The translations under genes and the position numbers were made by a program. A stretch of DNA of 64,000 nt from an uncultured Collinsella sp. GTDB taxonomy: Bacteria; Actinomycetota; Coriobacteriia; Coriobacteriales; Coriobacteriaceae. Shown here piece after piece: positions 4,093 to 47,294 of this stretch (positions within the stretch are counted from its first letter, which is position 1; every line of letters starts with the position of its first letter). The stretch spans positions 1 to 64,000 of the forward strand of contig CAKUBM010000007.1 of assembly GCA_934643145.1 (NCBI GenBank), in the 5' to 3' direction. The notes below the pieces were generated by a model. That model did not search any database and had not been told where the DNA came from. It saw only the letters and a program-made list of their open reading frames with translations.

Positions 4093-4179
4093 GCCCTCGT
4101 ATTTTTGTCTCGATCTGTAACATCTGGAGGAGATTACGGCCTGTAGATGTTACAGATTGAGACGTTATGTTTCGAGGGC
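4093..4179. repeat. Large hairpin, copy 1 of a tandem pair
   Basis: Arms 4107-4125 and 4145-4163 pair over 19 bp with one G-U (GTCTCGATCTGTAACATCT on the left). An outer GCCCTCG / CGAGGGC stem (4093-4099, 4173-4179) extends it. The loop is 19 nt. There is no T-run, so it is not an ordinary terminator. Confidence 0.8.
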
Positions 4180-4186
4180 CTGGTTT

Positions 4187-4242
4187 GTCTCGATCTGTAA
4201 CATTTACGGGCCGATTTGGTCGATAACTGTTACAGATTGAGA
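4187..4242. repeat. Large hairpin, copy 2 of a tandem pair
   Basis: Carries the same stem as the hairpin 80 bp upstream (CTCGATCTGTAACA on the left, TGTTACAGATTGAG on the right) around a different 25-nt loop. The shared stem and unrelated loops suggest a repeated protein-binding or mobile inverted repeat. Confidence 0.8.
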
Positions 4243-27260: not shown

Positions 27261-27452
27261 TGGAAGCCGAATGGATGCTCGTACCATCATTCGGTTTCCA
27301 GGGCAGCCACGGGCCTACGAAATGATCCCTTTCCCTCCGTTCCCAAGGGATCACGTGATCCGAAGGGGACGGAGGAAAAGGGATCACAAACAGCGGCGGC
27401 GCGTCTGACCGAACGAGTCCCCATACCCTCGTTCGGTCAGACGCGCCGCCGC
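27261..27452. repeat. Three consecutive large hairpins upstream of hisS
   Basis: Hairpin 1: 27261-27277 pairs with 27285-27300. Hairpin 2: 27323-27344 pairs with 27365-27386 (22 bp, two imperfect positions) and its loop contains the 14-bp palindrome GGATCACGTGATCC. Hairpin 3: 27393-27417 pairs perfectly with 27428-27452 (25 bp, 10-nt loop). This fills the gap between the MFS gene and hisS; no reading frame is supported here. Confidence 0.8.
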
Positions 27453-29044: not shown

Positions 29045-29088
29045 GAATACCGCATGTTACGTGCATAGAAGGAGGAATGGGAGGAAAC

Positions 29089-31902
29089 GTGGCTGAGAAC
29101 CTAAGCAACCAGTCTGTACCCGAAGCCGCGGCGCGCGTCGCTGCCGTGGTCAACCGCCTCGTTAACCGAATCGGCTCGAATGCCGAGTCCAGGGAGCGTC
29201 TCGCCGAGATCGAGATCCCTGAGGAGCTGCGCGACAATCTGGCGCTGTTCCTGCGCCTGGAGCGTCGTGTGCTTAGCGAGTATGATCCTGAGATCGCGGA
29301 CCTGTTCGACAAGATCCTGTCGGCCGAAATCGTGGCCAATGCCGGCAACCCCGGTACCCGCGCTGCCGACGAGGCCGTCGACGAGCAGGGCGTGCCCACC
29401 GCCGACGAGTCCACCGCCGTGGCATTCCGTGAGGTCGTCGATCTGATCGACAGCTTGCCGCTCGATAAGCAGCAGGTCATCGTTCGCGCCTTTACGAGCT
29501 TCTTCCACCTGGCAAACCTGTCGGAGGAGAACTACCGTGTGGCGCAGCTGCGCGAGCGCGAGGCCGGTGCGTCGACCGATACCGAGGTCGATCCCGCCAA
29601 CGAGCTCACCGTCGCTTATCACCAGCTGGTGAATGAGCTGGGCGTCGAGGGCGCCAACGAGCTGCTCGGCAAGCTTGAGTTCCATCCCGTCTTTACCGCG
29701 CATCCCACCGAGGCCCGTCGCAAGGCCGTCGAGGGCAAGATTCGCCGTATCTCCAACCTGCTGGAGGAGCGTCCGCGTCTGGGCGGCTCCGACCTGGTGG
29801 AGAACGAGCGCCATATGCTGCAGGAGATCGACGCCCTGGTGCGTACGAGCCCCATCGCGCTCAAGAAGCCCACGCCGGTCGAGGAAGCCGATACCATCAT
29901 CGACATCTTCGATAACACGCTGTTCGACGTCATCCCCGTTATCTATCGTCGCTTTGACGACTGGGTGCTGGGCGACAAGGCCGGCACCGTGCCGCCGCTG
30001 TGCCCGGCGTTCTTCCATCCCGGCAGCTGGATCGGTTCCGACCGCGACGGTAACCCCAACGTCACCGCCAAGGTGAGCCGTGAGGTCGCCGCCAAGTACT
30101 TCACCCACATGGTGCTCAAGCTCGAGGACAAGTGCCGCCGCATCGGCCGCAACCTCACGCTCGAGGCCACCTACAGCAAGCCGTCTGCCGAGCTCATCAA
30201 CCTGTGGAACCATCAGGTCGAGATGAGCACCCAGTACACTGCACGTGCTGAGCTGATCTCCGAGCACGAGCCGCATCGCGCCGTCATGCTCGTCATGGCC
30301 GACCGTCTGAACGCCACCGTGCGCCGTATCACCGACACCATGTACCACAGCGCCGATGAGTTCCTGGAGGACCTGCGCGTCGTCCAGCGCTCGCTGGCCG
30401 CCTGCGGTGCCGTCCGTGCTGCCTACGGCCCGGTCCAGACCATCATCTGGCAGGTCGAGTCCTTCGGCTTCCATATGGTCGAGATGGAGTTCCGTCAGCA
30501 CTCCGTGGTGCACGCCCGCGCCCTCAAGGATATCCACGAGAACGGTATCCATGGCGACCTGCAGCTCATGACGCGCGAGGTCATCGATACCTTCCGCGCT
30601 ATCGGCTCCATCCAAAAGCGCTACGGCAAGAAGATGGCGCACCGCTACATCATCTCGTTCACCAAGAGTGCCCAGCATGTGGCCGACGTCTTCGAGCTTG
30701 CCCACCTGTCCTTCGCACACGAGGAGGATGTCCCCGAGCTCGACGTGATCCCGCTGTTTGAGCAGCTCGAGGACCTCGAGGGCTGCGTCGACGTGCTCGA
30801 CCAGATGCTTACGCTGCCCGTGGTGCAGAAGCGCCTTGCCCAGACCAACCGCCGCATGGAGGTCATGCTGGGCTATTCCGACTCCTCCAAGGATGCCGGT
30901 CCTACCACGGCCATGCTCGCTCTGCACTCCGCGCAGGAGCGCATTGCCAAGTGGGCCGAGAAGAACGATATCGACCTGGTGCTCATGCACGGTCGCGGCG
31001 GTGCCGTGGGCCGTGGCGGCGGCCCGGCCAACAAGGCCGTGCTGGCGCAGCCCAAGGGTTCGGTCAACTGCTTCTTTAAGCTCACCGAGCAGGGCGAGGT
31101 CATCTTTGCCCGTTACGGCAACCGCACGCTGGCTCAGCGCCATGTTGAGTCCGTTGCCGCCGCAACGCTTTTGCAGTCGGCCCCGAGTGTCGAGAAGACC
31201 AACACCGAGACCACGCAGAAGTTCTGGGATATGGCCGAGAAGCTCAATGCCGCAAGCCACGAGCGCTATCTGGACCTGCTGAACACCGAGGACTTTACAC
31301 CGTGGTTCTCGACCGTGACGCCGCTGACCGAGGTCGGTCTGCTGCCGATCGGCTCGCGTCCCGCCAAGCGCGGTTTGGGTGCCAAGTCGCTCGACGACCT
31401 GCGTACCATTCCGTGGATCTTCAGCTGGAGCCAGGCGCGCATCAATCTGGCCGCCTGGTACGGCCTGGGTACCGCCTGCGAGCAGTTTGGCGATCTGGAC
31501 CAGCTTAAGGCTGCCTACCAGGAGTGGCCGTTCTTCCGCACCTTTATCGACAACATCGAGATGTCGATCGCCAAGACCGACCAGCGCATCGCCAAGATGT
31601 ATCTGCACCTGGGCGATCGCCAGGATCTGTCCGAGAAGGTCTTTACCGAGATGCAGCTCACCCGTAAGTGGGTCCTTGCCATCGTCGGTGATGAATGGCC
31701 GCTGCAGCGTCGTCGCGTGCTCGGCTGCGCCGTCCGCGTGCGTAACCCCTATGTCGATGCTCTATCCATCGCCCAGGTCCGCGCCCTTCGCGAGGTGCGT
31801 ATGAACCAGGACGAGATGGCGGAGGAGAAGAAGGCCGAGTACATGAGCCTGATTCTTTCGACTGTGACCGGCGTCTCGGCAGGATTGCAGAACACGGGGT
31901 AA
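29089..31902 (+). CDS. ppc: Phosphoenolpyruvate carboxylase
   Basis: A 937-residue enzyme converting PEP and bicarbonate to oxaloacetate, an anaplerotic step feeding succinate or aspartate formation. Catalytic motifs are VFTAHPTEARR, GSDRDGNPNVT, LGYSDSSKDAG and the glycine-rich MHGRGGAVGRGGGP. The GTG at 29089 with GGGAGG just upstream is chosen; an ATG at 29077 lies only 1 bp from AGGAGG. The C-terminus ends QNTG, as in the family. It is followed by a 127-bp palindromic element. Confidence 0.95.
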   Translation: MAENLSNQSVPEAAARVAAVVNRLVNRIGSNAESRERLAEIEIPEELRDNLALFLRLERRVLSEYDPEIADLFDKILSAEIVANAGNPGTRAADEAVDEQGVPTADESTAVAFREVVDLIDSLPLDKQQVIVRAFTSFFHLANLSEENYRVAQLREREAGASTDTEVDPANELTVAYHQLVNELGVEGANELLGKLEFHPVFTAHPTEARRKAVEGKIRRISNLLEERPRLGGSDLVENERHMLQEIDALVRTSPIALKKPTPVEEADTIIDIFDNTLFDVIPVIYRRFDDWVLGDKAGTVPPLCPAFFHPGSWIGSDRDGNPNVTAKVSREVAAKYFTHMVLKLEDKCRRIGRNLTLEATYSKPSAELINLWNHQVEMSTQYTARAELISEHEPHRAVMLVMADRLNATVRRITDTMYHSADEFLEDLRVVQRSLAACGAVRAAYGPVQTIIWQVESFGFHMVEMEFRQHSVVHARALKDIHENGIHGDLQLMTREVIDTFRAIGSIQKRYGKKMAHRYIISFTKSAQHVADVFELAHLSFAHEEDVPELDVIPLFEQLEDLEGCVDVLDQMLTLPVVQKRLAQTNRRMEVMLGYSDSSKDAGPTTAMLALHSAQERIAKWAEKNDIDLVLMHGRGGAVGRGGGPANKAVLAQPKGSVNCFFKLTEQGEVIFARYGNRTLAQRHVESVAAATLLQSAPSVEKTNTETTQKFWDMAEKLNAASHERYLDLLNTEDFTPWFSTVTPLTEVGLLPIGSRPAKRGLGAKSLDDLRTIPWIFSWSQARINLAAWYGLGTACEQFGDLDQLKAAYQEWPFFRTFIDNIEMSIAKTDQRIAKMYLHLGDRQDLSEKVFTEMQLTRKWVLAIVGDEWPLQRRRVLGCAVRVRNPYVDALSIAQVRALREVRMNQDEMAEEKKAEYMSLILSTVTGVSAGLQNTG

Positions 31903-31923: not shown

Positions 31924-32050
31924 GGGCCCGCCATCAGTTTACTTATAGGCACGTCCTCGGACATGCAAGAAGCCCTCGCTGCGCACTTCGTGCGGCGAGG
32001 GCTTCTTGCGTCCTGCGGAGTGTGCCTATAAGTAAACTGATGGCGGGCCC
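31924..32050. repeat. 127-bp palindromic element, copy 1
   Basis: Outer arms 31924-31952 and 32022-32050 pair perfectly over 29 bp. Inside are an asymmetric pair of 13-nt loops (GTCCTCGGACATG; CGTCCTGCGGAGT), a 14-bp stem (31966-31979 with 31995-32008) and a 15-nt apex TGCGCACTTCGTGCG. Copy 2 at 34738-34864 has the same segment lengths and the same loops and apex but different arms. It lies 21 bp after ppc. Confidence 0.9.
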
Positions 32051-32106
32051 TGCGATGTCCGGTCTTCAGCGGATTGGCCGCTGGGTGAGGGTGGTGCTTG
32101 GGGCGA

Positions 32107-32341
32107 CGTGCAAAAAACGGAGTTTTCAGCAGCCAAAGATTGATGCATAAGGCCATAGCCGGCTTTCGCTGCCTTTGTTGATGCTTTTGCACGACAATTG
32201 GGCCTTGGCGATGTTCATATATAGCTGGTTTCTCGCCGCATGCTATCCAGATGGGACGAGTCATGAGGACTATCTACCTTTTGAAAGACTTTTGACACCA
32301 AAATCTAATCTCGCGATGCTGAATACTCGCAAAAATGCACG
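32107..32341. repeat. Inverted-repeat-bounded element, family CGTGCA...TTCAGCA, copy 1
   Basis: The left end 32107-32131 begins CGTGCAAAAAACGGAG and ends TTCAGCA; the right end 32317-32341 is its imperfect complement (17 of 25 matches, the A/T tract being flipped). The same ends bound a 193-bp element at 52361-52553. The interior shows no supported gene. Confidence 0.55.
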
Positions 32342-32381
32342 CTCCGGAGGGTGCTACCCTGTTACGGCTAGAAATCTATGC

Positions 32382-32422
32382 GCCATTTTATGCAATTAAT
32401 TAACGCATTTATGCAAAATGGC
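32382..32422. promoter_or_regulatory. Candidate operator upstream of larA
   Basis: GCCATTTTATGCA (32382-32394) and TGCAAAATGGC (32412-32422) form an inverted repeat around an AT-rich spacer (ATTAATTAACGCATTTA). An AT-rich palindrome of this size in front of a lar gene fits a regulator site; the binding protein is unknown. Confidence 0.45.
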
Positions 32423-32474
32423 TTACGTGCGTACGTCTCGGGGTAGATGTTTGCCTCGGCGCTGCGTAAGTCAT

Positions 32475-32535
32475 CCTGTCTGTAGTGTCTTTGACAGGCG
32501 GCCGCGGTCCCGTTTGGGATCGCTGCCGTTTTGTT
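32475..32535 (+). terminator. Tandem leader hairpins, possible attenuator of larA
   Basis: CCTGTC / GACAGG (32475-32480, 32493-32498) is followed by GCGGTCCC-GTTT-GGGATCGC (32504-32523), then TTTTGTTG. It resembles an intrinsic terminator 120 nt upstream of the larA start, so transcript attenuation or a leader regulator is possible. I did not recognise a known riboswitch. Confidence 0.45.
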
Positions 32536-32654
32536 GTGGGTCAAATATGAACGTTGTGTTAATGAGTCGGTGGACGGTGGTGTTTTTCGGTGAGCGGCGT
32601 ATCCTTCCAACGGTTTATCTAGTGTGTCAGTTGAAAGGAAGAGGGCGCTCGTCA

Positions 32655-33932
32655 TTGTTTGAATGTGAACTGCCGTTTGACCACAAGACGTTGCATCTGG
32701 AGCTCGAGGATAAGAACTTCGCGGGTGTGATGGAAGGTCATCAAAACGAGTTTAAGACTACGAAATCACAGGAAGAGCTGGTAGAGGAGTCGCTTGCCAA
32801 CCCTTATGGCTCGCCTTCGCTCGAGGAGCTTTGTGCTGGCAAGAAGGATATCGTCATCATTAGCTCCGATCATACGCGTCCCGTTCCCTCGCGTGTGACG
32901 ATGCCTATTCTGCTGCATCACATCCACTCCGCTGCGCCTGAGGCGCGCGTTCGCATTCTGGTTGCTACGGGTATGCATCGTCCGTCGACGCACGAGGAGC
33001 TCGTCAACAAGTACGGCGAAGAGATCGTTGCCAACGAGGAAATCGTTATGCACGTCGCGACTGACGACAGCATGATGAAAAAGATCGGCACCCTGCCTTC
33101 TGGTGGCGAGTGCATCATCAACAAGATTGCTGCCGATTGCGATCTGCTGCTTGCCGAGGGCTTTATTGAGCCGCACTTCTTTGCCGGTTTCTCTGGCAGC
33201 CGCAAGTCCGTGCTGCCTGGCATCGCCAGCTACAAGACCATCATGTACAACCACAACGGTCAGTTTGTGAATGATTCCCACTCGCGTGCCGGCAACCTGT
33301 GCCACAACCACGTGAGCGAGGACATGTTTGCTGCCGCCGAGATGGCTCACCTTGCCTTTGTGCTTAACGTGGTGCTCAACGGCAAGCACGAGGTCATTGC
33401 CTCCTTTGCCGGCGACATCCACAAGGCGCATGAGGCTGGCTGCGAGTTCGTGAAGAGCCTTGCCGGCGTTGAGCCCGTCGAGTGCGAGATTGCCATCACC
33501 ACCAACGGCGGCTACCCGCTCGACCAGAACATCTACCAGGCCGTGAAGGGCATGTGCTCTGCCGAGGCCACGCTTCCCGAGGGCGGTGTGATCATCGACG
33601 TCGCCGGTTGTGCCGACGGTCACGGTGGCGAGGGCTTCTATCACAACATCGCCGACAACGATCCGGCGGAGTTTGAGCGCGCCTGCATCGACCGTCCCAA
33701 GGACGAGACCCTGCCCGACCAGTGGACGAGCCAGATCTTTGCCCGCATCCTGGCGCATCACCCTGTGATCATGGTTACCGACCTGTGCGATCACCAGATG
33801 ATCAAGGATATGCACATGACGCCGGTCAACACCCTCGATGAGGCGCTCAAGCTCGCCTTTGAGATGAAGGGTGCCGACGCCAAGGTTGCCGTCATTCCCG
33901 ACGGCCTGGGCGTTGTCGTCGCTCAGCACTAG
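32655..33932 (+). CDS. larA: Nickel-dependent lactate racemase LarA
   Basis: A 425-residue enzyme interconverting D- and L-lactate with the nickel pincer cofactor. Earlier in-frame starts add over 40 residues with no family similarity; the TTG at 32655 has GAGGG 9 bp upstream and gives the usual LarA length. Conserved parts are SSDHTRPVPSRV, ATGMHRPST, and EPHFFAGFSGSRKSVLPG, with the lysine that carries the cofactor in the family. It is followed after 49 bp by a MIP channel gene. The cofactor genes larB and larC lie 2.6 kb away on the other strand. Some LarA homologues act on other 2-hydroxyacids, so lactate is likely but not certain. Confidence 0.88.
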   Translation: MFECELPFDHKTLHLELEDKNFAGVMEGHQNEFKTTKSQEELVEESLANPYGSPSLEELCAGKKDIVIISSDHTRPVPSRVTMPILLHHIHSAAPEARVRILVATGMHRPSTHEELVNKYGEEIVANEEIVMHVATDDSMMKKIGTLPSGGECIINKIAADCDLLLAEGFIEPHFFAGFSGSRKSVLPGIASYKTIMYNHNGQFVNDSHSRAGNLCHNHVSEDMFAAAEMAHLAFVLNVVLNGKHEVIASFAGDIHKAHEAGCEFVKSLAGVEPVECEIAITTNGGYPLDQNIYQAVKGMCSAEATLPEGGVIIDVAGCADGHGGEGFYHNIADNDPAEFERACIDRPKDETLPDQWTSQIFARILAHHPVIMVTDLCDHQMIKDMHMTPVNTLDEALKLAFEMKGADAKVAVIPDGLGVVVAQH

Positions 33933-33981
33933 TACGCGGCCTAAACGAATCGTTTATAACCGACAAGAAAGATAAGGTTTT

Positions 33982-34713
33982 ATGCTTACCAAACTCCTCT
34001 GCGAATTCGGCGCAACGGCCCTCATGATCATCTTTGGCGTGGGCGTGCACTGCGATACCGTGCTCAAGGGCACCAAGTATCAGGGCTCCGGCCACATGTT
34101 TGCCATCACCACCTGGTCTTTTGGCATCTCGGTCTGCCTGTTTGTCTTTGGCGGCGCCGTGTGCATGAACCCCGCCATGGTGCTTGCCCAGTGCATCGTA
34201 GGCCTGGTGCCGTGGAGCAGCTGCATCCCCTTCATGATTGCCGATATGCTCGGCGGCTTTGTGGGTGCCGTAATCGCTTGGCTTATGTATGCCGATGAGT
34301 TCAAGGCTTCCGAGGGCGTCGTCGACCCCATTGCCCAGCGCAACATCTTCTCGACCAACCCCACCACCGAGGGTACGAACTACGCCCGCAACTTCTTCTG
34401 CGAGGCTATCTGCACCTTTGTGTTCATCAGCGCCATCCTTGCTGCCGCTAACCGCGCCGGCGAGAACGTTCTGATGCTCGCTATCTGCGTTGGCCTGATC
34501 GTTTGGGCTGTTGGCATGGGCATGGGCGGCATCACCGGCTTCGCCATGAACCAGGCTCGTGACCTTGGTCCTCGCATGGCCTATCAGGTGCTGCCGATTA
34601 AGAACAAGGCCGACAACAACTGGAAGTACGGCCTGCTTGTTCCTGGCATTGCGCCGTTTGTCGGTGCCGCTCTGGCTGCGCTGTTTGTGCATGGTTTCTT
34701 GGGCATGTTCTAG
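33982..34713 (+). CDS. MIP/aquaglyceroporin-family channel, LarD-like
   Basis: A 243-residue major intrinsic protein with six predicted helices. The first NPA box is intact (CMNPAMVLAQ), but the second reads NQA (GFAMNQARDLGPR) instead of NPA. In lactobacilli a MIP protein (LarD) next to larA carries lactic acid across the membrane, and the position here supports the same role. GATAAGG precedes the ATG. A 127-bp palindromic element follows 24 bp after the stop. Confidence 0.82.
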   Translation: MLTKLLCEFGATALMIIFGVGVHCDTVLKGTKYQGSGHMFAITTWSFGISVCLFVFGGAVCMNPAMVLAQCIVGLVPWSSCIPFMIADMLGGFVGAVIAWLMYADEFKASEGVVDPIAQRNIFSTNPTTEGTNYARNFFCEAICTFVFISAILAAANRAGENVLMLAICVGLIVWAVGMGMGGITGFAMNQARDLGPRMAYQVLPIKNKADNNWKYGLLVPGIAPFVGAALAALFVHGFLGMF

Positions 34714-34737
34714 TCCAAGACAATTGATAGAACGCCC

Positions 34738-34864
34738 GGGTCCGGCATAGGTTAACTTTCCGCCGCGTCCTCGGACATGCAAGAAGCTCCCGCTGCGCAC
34801 TTCGTGCGGCGGGAGCTTCTTGCGTCCTGTGGAGTGCGGCGGAAAGTTAACCTATGCCGGACCC
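34738..34864. repeat. 127-bp palindromic element, copy 2
   Basis: Outer arms 34738-34766 and 34836-34864 pair perfectly over 29 bp. The inner loops GTCCTCGGACATG and CGTCCTGTGGAGT and the apex match copy 1 at 31924-32050 (one base differs in a loop). The inner 14-bp stem differs at two positions from copy 1, each matched by the opposite change on the other arm. Confidence 0.9.
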
Positions 34865-38046: not shown

Positions 38047-38302
38047 GGCGGGCCTTTCCGAGTGCAGTTGTATTGGGGCACATTGTCGCACGTGGCGCGC
38101 CTTGGCGACGGCCGCGGTGCGTCAATTGTTTCGTCTCCGTCAAGTCTTTGGGCAGGAGCCACTTTTACGCGGCACATCGGCACAGGTGCGATAAGATAGA
38201 ACGCCATGTCTGGCTGCGCGGTTTACGCAGGCTGGGCAAATCTGTACGACGCCGCCCGGAACGACACGGGGCGGCACAGATCCATAAAGGAGGATCACTG
38301 GT

Positions 38303-46950: not shown

Positions 46951-46976
46951 GTGCTTTGGGACATGGTTTTGGACCC

Positions 46977-47198
46977 CGTGGTCAAAAAATGCCAAATATG
47001 AGTACTGTTGCAAAAGAGGTGTCATATTTTTCGGCCTGCTCTGAGCGAAAATGGGCTCAAAATCAATTTATCTAACCCCCTTTAAAGGGCGTTTGACGGC
47101 TTTCAACCTCTTCGAATCGCTCAAATTAGGCAATTTGCTCTCGATTTTGCTGCTACTAAATTGGTGACAGTACTCATATTTGCCACTTTTTGCCCACG
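46977..47198. repeat. 222-bp element bounded by 32-bp inverted repeats
   Basis: Ends 46977-47008 and 47167-47198 are complementary at 29 of 32 positions; the shared part reads CAAATATGAGTACTGT toward the inside. The interior is AT-rich compared with its surroundings and contains no supported frame. It has the size and form of a MITE or other non-autonomous repeat, but I could not identify target duplications. Confidence 0.7.
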
Positions 47199-47294
47199 AG
47201 GTGTTCAGAGGAGCTCTCGACAAGCATCTAACGCTACAATAGCTACCACGTGGCTGGGTTTGCCGGCCGAATGTGCGATGTCGTGGGAGGGGAC

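Follow-up and report, generated by a model that had tools for sequence, protein, structure and literature searches.

Two 127 bp palindromic elements on the forward strand of a 64,000 bp stretch of DNA from an uncultured Collinsella sp. (contig CAKUBM010000007.1, positions 1 to 64,000; hereafter the window) belong to a large family of hairpins in the order Coriobacteriales, which is a kind of extragenic palindrome without an Rfam match or a description in the open literature. Members of the family mostly stand in sense orientation shortly after stop codons, share a constant asymmetric internal loop between two stems of free sequence, and carry long outer arms whose changes are nearly always matched on the opposite arm. 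In the reading that we prefer, to which we give a probability of about 0.45, the element would act in the sense direction at the 3' ends of genes as a terminator or blocker, its asymmetric loop would be read by some factor, and its arms would be kept matched by self-copying of the DNA. The two elements had been picked out in an earlier note made from the sequence alone, which took conserved loops and covarying stems to indicate a selected folded RNA or a cruciform recognised by a protein; the repeated family, the constant loops and the compensated stems all stand. The further conclusion, that the covariation reflects selection for RNA folding, is not supported, as G.T pairs are not preferred to A.C.

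Element 1 occupies positions 31924-32050 and element 2 positions 34738-34864, and direct alignment bore out their positions, their common segment lengths (29-13-14-15-14-13-29) and the compensation of their arms. In element 1 the left outer arm (31924-31952, 29 nt) is the exact reverse complement of the right outer arm (32022-32050, 29 nt); between them lie the left internal-loop strand GTCCTCGGACATG (31953-31965), composed of the constant GTCCTC, the 4 nt mid-helix half GGAC and a bulged AT, the 14-15-14 inner hairpin (31966-32008), again with exactly reverse complementary arms, and the right internal-loop strand CGTCCTGCGGAGT (32009-32021) with the constant TGYGG. Element 2 has exactly reverse complementary 29 nt outer arms at 34738-34766 and 34836-34864, the left strand GTCCTCGGACATG at 34767-34779 as a match to the core pattern and, from the segment alignment, the 14-15-14 inner hairpin at 34780-34822 and the right strand CGTCCTGTGGAGT at 34823-34835. 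For a perfect 29 bp inverted repeat with a spacer of up to 100 nt the expectation in uniform random sequence is approximately 2e-11 per 64 kb. Loop 1 and the apex do not differ between the two elements; loop 2, which had also been described as conserved, differs by one base. There are 10 differences per outer arm, fewer than the previously estimated 13 or so, and two per arm of the inner stem as first described, and each is compensated on the opposite side. The predicted fold extends beyond the 127 bp through an extra internal loop (TCC / TG) into a weaker third stem, and CTGCG directly follows both elements. The core pattern and both covariance models described below agree that the window contains these two family members only.

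The constant part of the family is a core whose left side is CGTCCTC and whose right side is TGCGGAATG; it forms an asymmetric internal loop between two stems of free sequence. Within it lie the nearly invariant pairs TCC/GGA, a T.C mismatch accompanied by a bulged T and, on the right, a bulge of two bases such as RT or AA. The core was constant in an alignment of 47 rows and in 116 distinct cores; part of this invariance is by construction, since the finder demanded some of the core letters, and the covariance models recovered copies free of that rule. The 4 bp mid helix varies in matched sets (GGAC/GTCC, GGGC/CCCC with a mismatch at the fourth pair, GACC/GGTC, GCAC/GTGC, GCGC/GCGC and GCCG/CGGC), and the inner hairpin ranges from the mid helix with a small loop up to around twenty extra pairs. 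Together with outer arms of approximately 27-29 bp, whose sequence is free and which in some species contain one extra internal loop, this gives an overall element size of approximately 86-140 bp.

A search of 39 related genomes for the core with up to two mismatches found it in 13, all of one genus, with no match to the reversed pattern used as a control, and a gapped pattern detected the element in 23 of the 43 genomes of the genus; since records named Collinsella aerofaciens bear the same elements, this genus is probably Collinsella. Four C. aerofaciens loci (L034, L044, L081 and L096) were kept from a loose-pattern search whose other matches were excluded, as was one chance match from counts (L269, among loci L231-L270). 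A covariance model built from 47 copies (R1) gave 12-15 strong distinct sites per genome in three aerofaciens-like Collinsella genomes once opposite-strand duplicates were removed, and its weak matches in other species turned out to be related elements, most of which (86-102 nt) have a shorter inner hairpin. A second model (R2) extended the family to 39 of the 43 genomes of the genus, to 21 of 22 listed genomes from other genera of the same family, and to 17 genomes of a family designated f5 and three of another, f2; the search of related genomes proposed in the earlier note revealed a large family, present in 80 of 297 genomes and 13 of 107 genera of the order. In this survey up to 14 candidates per genome were scored, so that counts per genome are minimum values, and most matches were accepted on model score.

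The author of the earlier note had not recognised the family, and neither window element gave an Rfam match at gathering score, nor did those in another 16 loci, in which all the matches were to tRNAs; Collinsella-1 (RF01700), which was included, did not reach its gathering score. A known RNA family was rejected on these grounds, and a loose threshold returned mostly microRNA hairpin models and one small RNA (sRNA) model, all below their cut-offs. No description of the hairpin family was found in the open-licence literature, subscription papers being outside the scope of that search. Phage or plasmid cargo was likewise rejected: no phage record matches element 1, and the one matching plasmid record is an 899,693 bp Collinsella replicon named plasmid 6 of C. 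aerofaciens (NZ_OY725717.1), which may be a chromosomal piece under a plasmid label. In that record (locus L588), which also contains a class II aldolase gene, a vsr mismatch endonuclease gene adjoins the element.

The position of the elements relative to genes is mostly regular. Those 207 distinct elements whose upstream sequence was long enough fell into 39 site groups, defined by shared upstream words, so that distant orthologues such as groEL can be split between groups. When one representative with enough flank was taken for each, a sense open reading frame (ORF) of at least 80 aa stopped 8-44 nt before the stem in 33 of 38 site groups, compared to an ORF end in seven of 38 on the opposite side and in the opposite orientation; this placement shortly after stop codons lends support to a role as RNA. 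In the window, element 1 begins 21 nt after the TAA of ppc, encoding phosphoenolpyruvate carboxylase (29077-31902, +; PF00311, 1.8e-218), and element 2 begins 24 nt after the TAG of a gene for an MIP-family channel (33982-34713, +; PF00230, 2.6e-28), in agreement with the approximately 20 bp given previously. The region bracketed by the two had been described as larA; it holds both the lactate racemase gene larA (32418-33932, +; PF09861 and PF21113, start codon approximate) and the MIP gene, Pfam searches supporting PEPcase, Lar_N/LarA_C and MIP as the neighbouring products. By family searches the genes carrying elements include ppc, MIP, ilvE, thrB, lactaldehyde reductase, an oppF-like ATPase, pta, grcA, pfkA, class II aldolase (fba) and pyruvate:ferredoxin oxidoreductase (nifJ), together with groEL, which was identified by its C-terminus only. 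Judging by function, this set tends toward fermentation genes, which would usually be well expressed. At the oppF locus (L325, L272 and L461) two facing elements lie approximately 200-300 bp apart, the inverted one near a tRNA gene.

A hairpin in this position invites comparison with terminators, and the pfkA site allows one to be made. Species with 99-100% identical PfkA carry there either the element, an unrelated hairpin, or no hairpin (L401, one possible empty site), and in more distantly related Collinsella the gene is followed by a T-tract terminator of the ordinary kind. Among the 29 of 30 pfkA loci which were parsed (L414 was left out), a T-tract signal was present in eight of nine loci without a hairpin, in four of 14 with the element, and in none of six with the other hairpin. 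This other hairpin, which is nested and stands in the same flanks (L390, L391, L394, L399, L405 and L407), is of the type GGGCCCTCCGACCCC... with the core TATTTCGATT; the site thus hosts a second hairpin family in near-identical species. Of 204 elements only two have T-rich sequence directly after the arm. Both (L314 and L332) belong to the ilvE site and are truncated, and with the T-rich stretch behind their shortened stems they look as though they had been converted to ordinary terminators.

The outer arms are matched to an extraordinary degree. The earlier note had named uncompensated arms in further copies as the observation that would speak against it; a few copies do show them, and 158 of 167 finder candidates keep at least 22 of 27 outer pairs. 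Of the other nine, five were judged to be truncated or decayed (L280, L314, L332, L514 and L515) and four to be chance motif matches. The finder needed 12 pairs, and hence the copies L285 (the same as L010) and L304 fall outside the 167; in an earlier set of arm pairs six of 75 had been set aside, including these two for a replaced arm and L356 for a one-base mis-registration. Covariation, for which the note had suggested a statistical test, is extreme: in the 47-row alignment each of the 27 outer pairs has changes in both arms, pairing holds in 98.6% of cells, most outer pairs show three or four Watson-Crick types, and over the whole structure 653 cells are changed on both sides compared to 177 in shuffled alignments.

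Such covariation far above the shuffles, the sense orientation behind stop codons and the constant asymmetric loop are what would be expected of a structured RNA (an sRNA, a regulatory RNA in the 3' untranslated region, or an RNase III site) with stems maintained by ordinary selection on base pairing. The mismatches argue otherwise. Since selected RNA pairing would tolerate G.T better, G.T should exceed A.C; instead, 121 distinct intact 27 bp arm pairs contained 3173 Watson-Crick pairs, 32 G.T, 34 A.C and 28 other, which reduce to 29 G.T, 31 A.C and 25 other events when each is counted once per cluster, position and state. Terminator hairpins from the same loci, chosen by a rule blind to mismatch type, showed 16 G.T, 4 A.C and 3 other in 47 groups of similar hairpins with one count per group (Fisher P = 0.019), or, in a cruder ungrouped count of 74, 27 G.T, 5 A.C and 1 other (P = 7.5e-4). 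With other genera added the symmetry persisted (149 arm pairs; 40 G.T, 41 A.C and 41 other). Moreover, in the outer helix of the 47-row alignment 478 cells were changed on both sides compared to nine on one side, although a lone mismatch in a 29 bp stem should hardly matter to an RNA. We therefore regard selection on RNA pairing as an unlikely cause of the matched arms.

The same data point to the level of DNA. In clusters of at least three arm pairs, 69 of 77 mismatch events were confined to a single arm pair and thus look young, as for mutations that are soon reverted or copied; the matched changes comprised 51 transitions and 39 transversions. At six of 14 distinct sites (19 representatives) the coding 3' end is repeated in inverted form beyond the element, as outward self-copying would give. 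Taken together, the mismatch symmetry, the young mismatches and the inverted coding-end repeats favour copying between the arms at the DNA level over RNA-pairing selection as the explanation of the matched arms. Template switching has been proposed to create and maintain perfect stems (PMC8794818). In the mechanism that we propose, the 3' end of the mRNA would fold into the hairpin, which would end or block transcription and/or protect the message, and some factor would bind or read the asymmetric internal loop. Template switching within the hairpin at replication, or conversion from arm to arm, would carry a mutation in one arm over to its partner, so that the arms could drift freely as matched pairs, and selection on the asymmetric loop is assumed to preserve it despite the self-copying.

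A number of observations weigh against this mechanism. Self-copying should erase asymmetric loops too, and it is because the loops nevertheless persist that loop selection is assumed; it is the simplest added assumption. Five of the 38 site groups (2, 5, 21, 22 and 38) have no sense ORF end, and one element at the oppF locus is oriented the other way. L285 and L304 each have one arm wholly replaced, the mismatch events were counted without phylogenetic correction, and the inverted coding-end repeat was not significant at eight of the 14 sites. As to termination, the contrast at pfkA sets different species against each other, and a T-tract signal occurred within 200 nt downstream in 11 of 39 site representatives compared to 68 of 362 other long ORF ends, a set which includes spurious frames; the elements therefore do not in general substitute for T-tract terminators.

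The dynamics of the family were addressed by comparing sites between species. Corresponding sites recur between species, while the arm sequence and the inner hairpin differ; the thrB site group, for example, contains 12 elements with six arm families and cores of 23-70 nt. The outer arms are site-specific: in only one case did two site groups (5 and 21) have an exact 20 nt arm in common, and these two seem to be one site. Identical cores of 65-67 nt are, on the other hand, present in two to three different site groups, and the 67 nt core of element 1 recurs identically in two further groups. Because the arms are site-specific while identical cores occur in several groups, the inner hairpins appear, from their sequences, to have been exchanged between loci. 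Recent copy-and-paste spread was rejected, as site groups do not have outer arms in common with this one exception, and copying of the arms from the local flank at insertion was rejected as a general origin, since a loose arm pattern, as judged by eye, is common to many sites.

The shared cores would also suit a mobile DNA hairpin, similar to those of REP/RAYT systems (repetitive extragenic palindromes and their associated tyrosine transposases) or to a miniature inverted-repeat transposable element (MITE), which would be, in single-stranded form, the substrate of a Y1 (HUH) transposase; the element is, moreover, a repeated palindrome downstream of genes, and its left loop starts with CGTC, the tag of one REP superfamily (PMC3733652). 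Matches to the transposase family PF01797 were distributed accordingly: within the genus all six genomes without one have two or fewer elements and 31 of 37 with one have at least five (Fisher P = 1.5e-4, from minimum counts and with kinship ignored), and across the order PF01797 was present in 68 of 80 element-bearing genomes compared to 107 of 217 others. A direct association, for which the earlier note had proposed to look, did not emerge, in that a search for the core motif found the element in none of 14 RAYT-like loci of 5.2 kb each (10 in carriers and four in other species); at a single locus (L463) an inverted element lies approximately 260 bp from an IS200/IS605-like tnpA. Genome G214, which is 99% complete, has no PF01797 match yet gave 20 R2 matches, and in 15 loci retrieved from it core and arms together confirmed eight distinct elements. 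A Y1/RAYT transposase as obligatory partner was rejected, since 12 of the 80 element-bearing genomes, including G214, are without a PF01797 match; the statistical link remains. Given also the site-specific outer arms, we consider a mobile hairpin distinctly improbable.

The symmetry of the mismatches is what would be expected of a feature of double-stranded DNA, and hence also of a cruciform or single-stranded DNA site which a protein binds independently of transcription, either attC-like or chromosome-organising. The constant bulges would give such a hairpin strand polarity, as in attC sites. Yet in 33 of 38 site groups the element is oriented like the gene upstream of it, a regularity for which a transcription-independent site would have no need, and of the explanations weighed here this one seems the least probable to us.

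If DNA self-copying is the cause of the matched arms, the implications go beyond this family. Covariation is the evidence by which an RNA is ordinarily proved functional; in this family it is saturated without the G.U intermediates of RNA selection, which are present in a control from the same DNA, and this suggests that matched changes can arise without such selection. The 207 distinct elements in 39 site groups constitute a large natural data set on template switching as a means of maintaining hairpins, and the loop offers a handle on the ending of transcripts in abundant gut actinobacteria.

Other features of the window were also recorded. An aspS RNA (RF02930) was matched by Rfam at 38208-38291 (+) with 76 bits. 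At 4107-4242 a GTCTCGATCTGTAACATCT-like sequence recurs in a cluster of copies of alternating orientation, possibly a separate palindromic repeat, and further long inverted repeats, at 27323-27452 (32 nt at 84% and 25 nt perfect) and at 46973-47202 (36 nt at 89% with a 158 nt spacer), gave no match to R1 or R2.

Among known systems, integron attC sites also combine variable arms with conserved unpaired bases; the orientation of the present family, unlike theirs, follows the upstream gene. ERIC sequences (enterobacterial repetitive intergenic consensus) are likewise approximately 127 bp, and are set beside the family by length alone. Rho-independent terminators share with it a sense hairpin a few nucleotides after the stop codon, and behind pfkA the family occupies the position in which a U-tract terminator is present in other species of Collinsella; it differs from them in lacking a U-tract directly after the stem, in its much greater length and in its constant internal-loop sequence. 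REP sequences, with the bacterial interspersed mosaic elements (BIMEs) and REP doublets forming hairpins (REPINs) built from them, are extragenic palindromes as well, several per genome and mostly downstream of coding regions. However, REP are short palindromes (20-40 bp) with conserved arms, a GTAG or CGTC tag at one end and a RAYT gene flanked by the repeat, whereas the family is several times longer, its arms are free in sequence with the constant part inside the hairpin, its CGTC lies between the two stems, and it was not found in the RAYT-like loci. In PMC3733652, which includes the CGTC-tagged REP that resemble our left loop, G.T pairs are reported to be frequent in the stems of GTAG REP, while in our family G.T equals A.C. 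Some Collinsella RAYT-like loci have their own, different long palindromes (of the GGGACGGGGCTATTTTAGC, GGGGACAGGCACTTTTTTCCC and GGGGACGTGTTCC types; L440 1915-2037, L448 4643-4720 and L449 3183-3287). MITEs have terminal inverted repeats common to their copies, together with a target duplication, whereas in the family the outer arms differ between site groups. The family would thus act like a terminator or a REP-type 3' element and yet departs from both in the defining features tested, namely the U-tract and the short tagged repeat with a RAYT gene. The arms resemble those of self-maintained palindromes, which have long near-perfect arms, matched changes and rare, mostly young mismatches (Nematomorpha mitochondrial genes, PMC6649704; template-switch hairpins, PMC8794818); our elements likewise have near-perfect arms, matched changes and mismatches of all kinds which are mostly young. 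They are unlike these palindromes in their constant asymmetric core and in a position and orientation that are fixed with respect to genes; conversion alone is therefore not enough to explain them. We put forward, tentatively and with rather more doubt than confidence, that they may represent a new class of 3'-end element in Coriobacteriales: a giant hairpin whose one conserved asymmetric loop would be read by a lineage-specific factor as a signal for the end of the transcript, with arms copied by the DNA itself, inner hairpins exchanged between loci, and covariation arising from mutation instead of selection.

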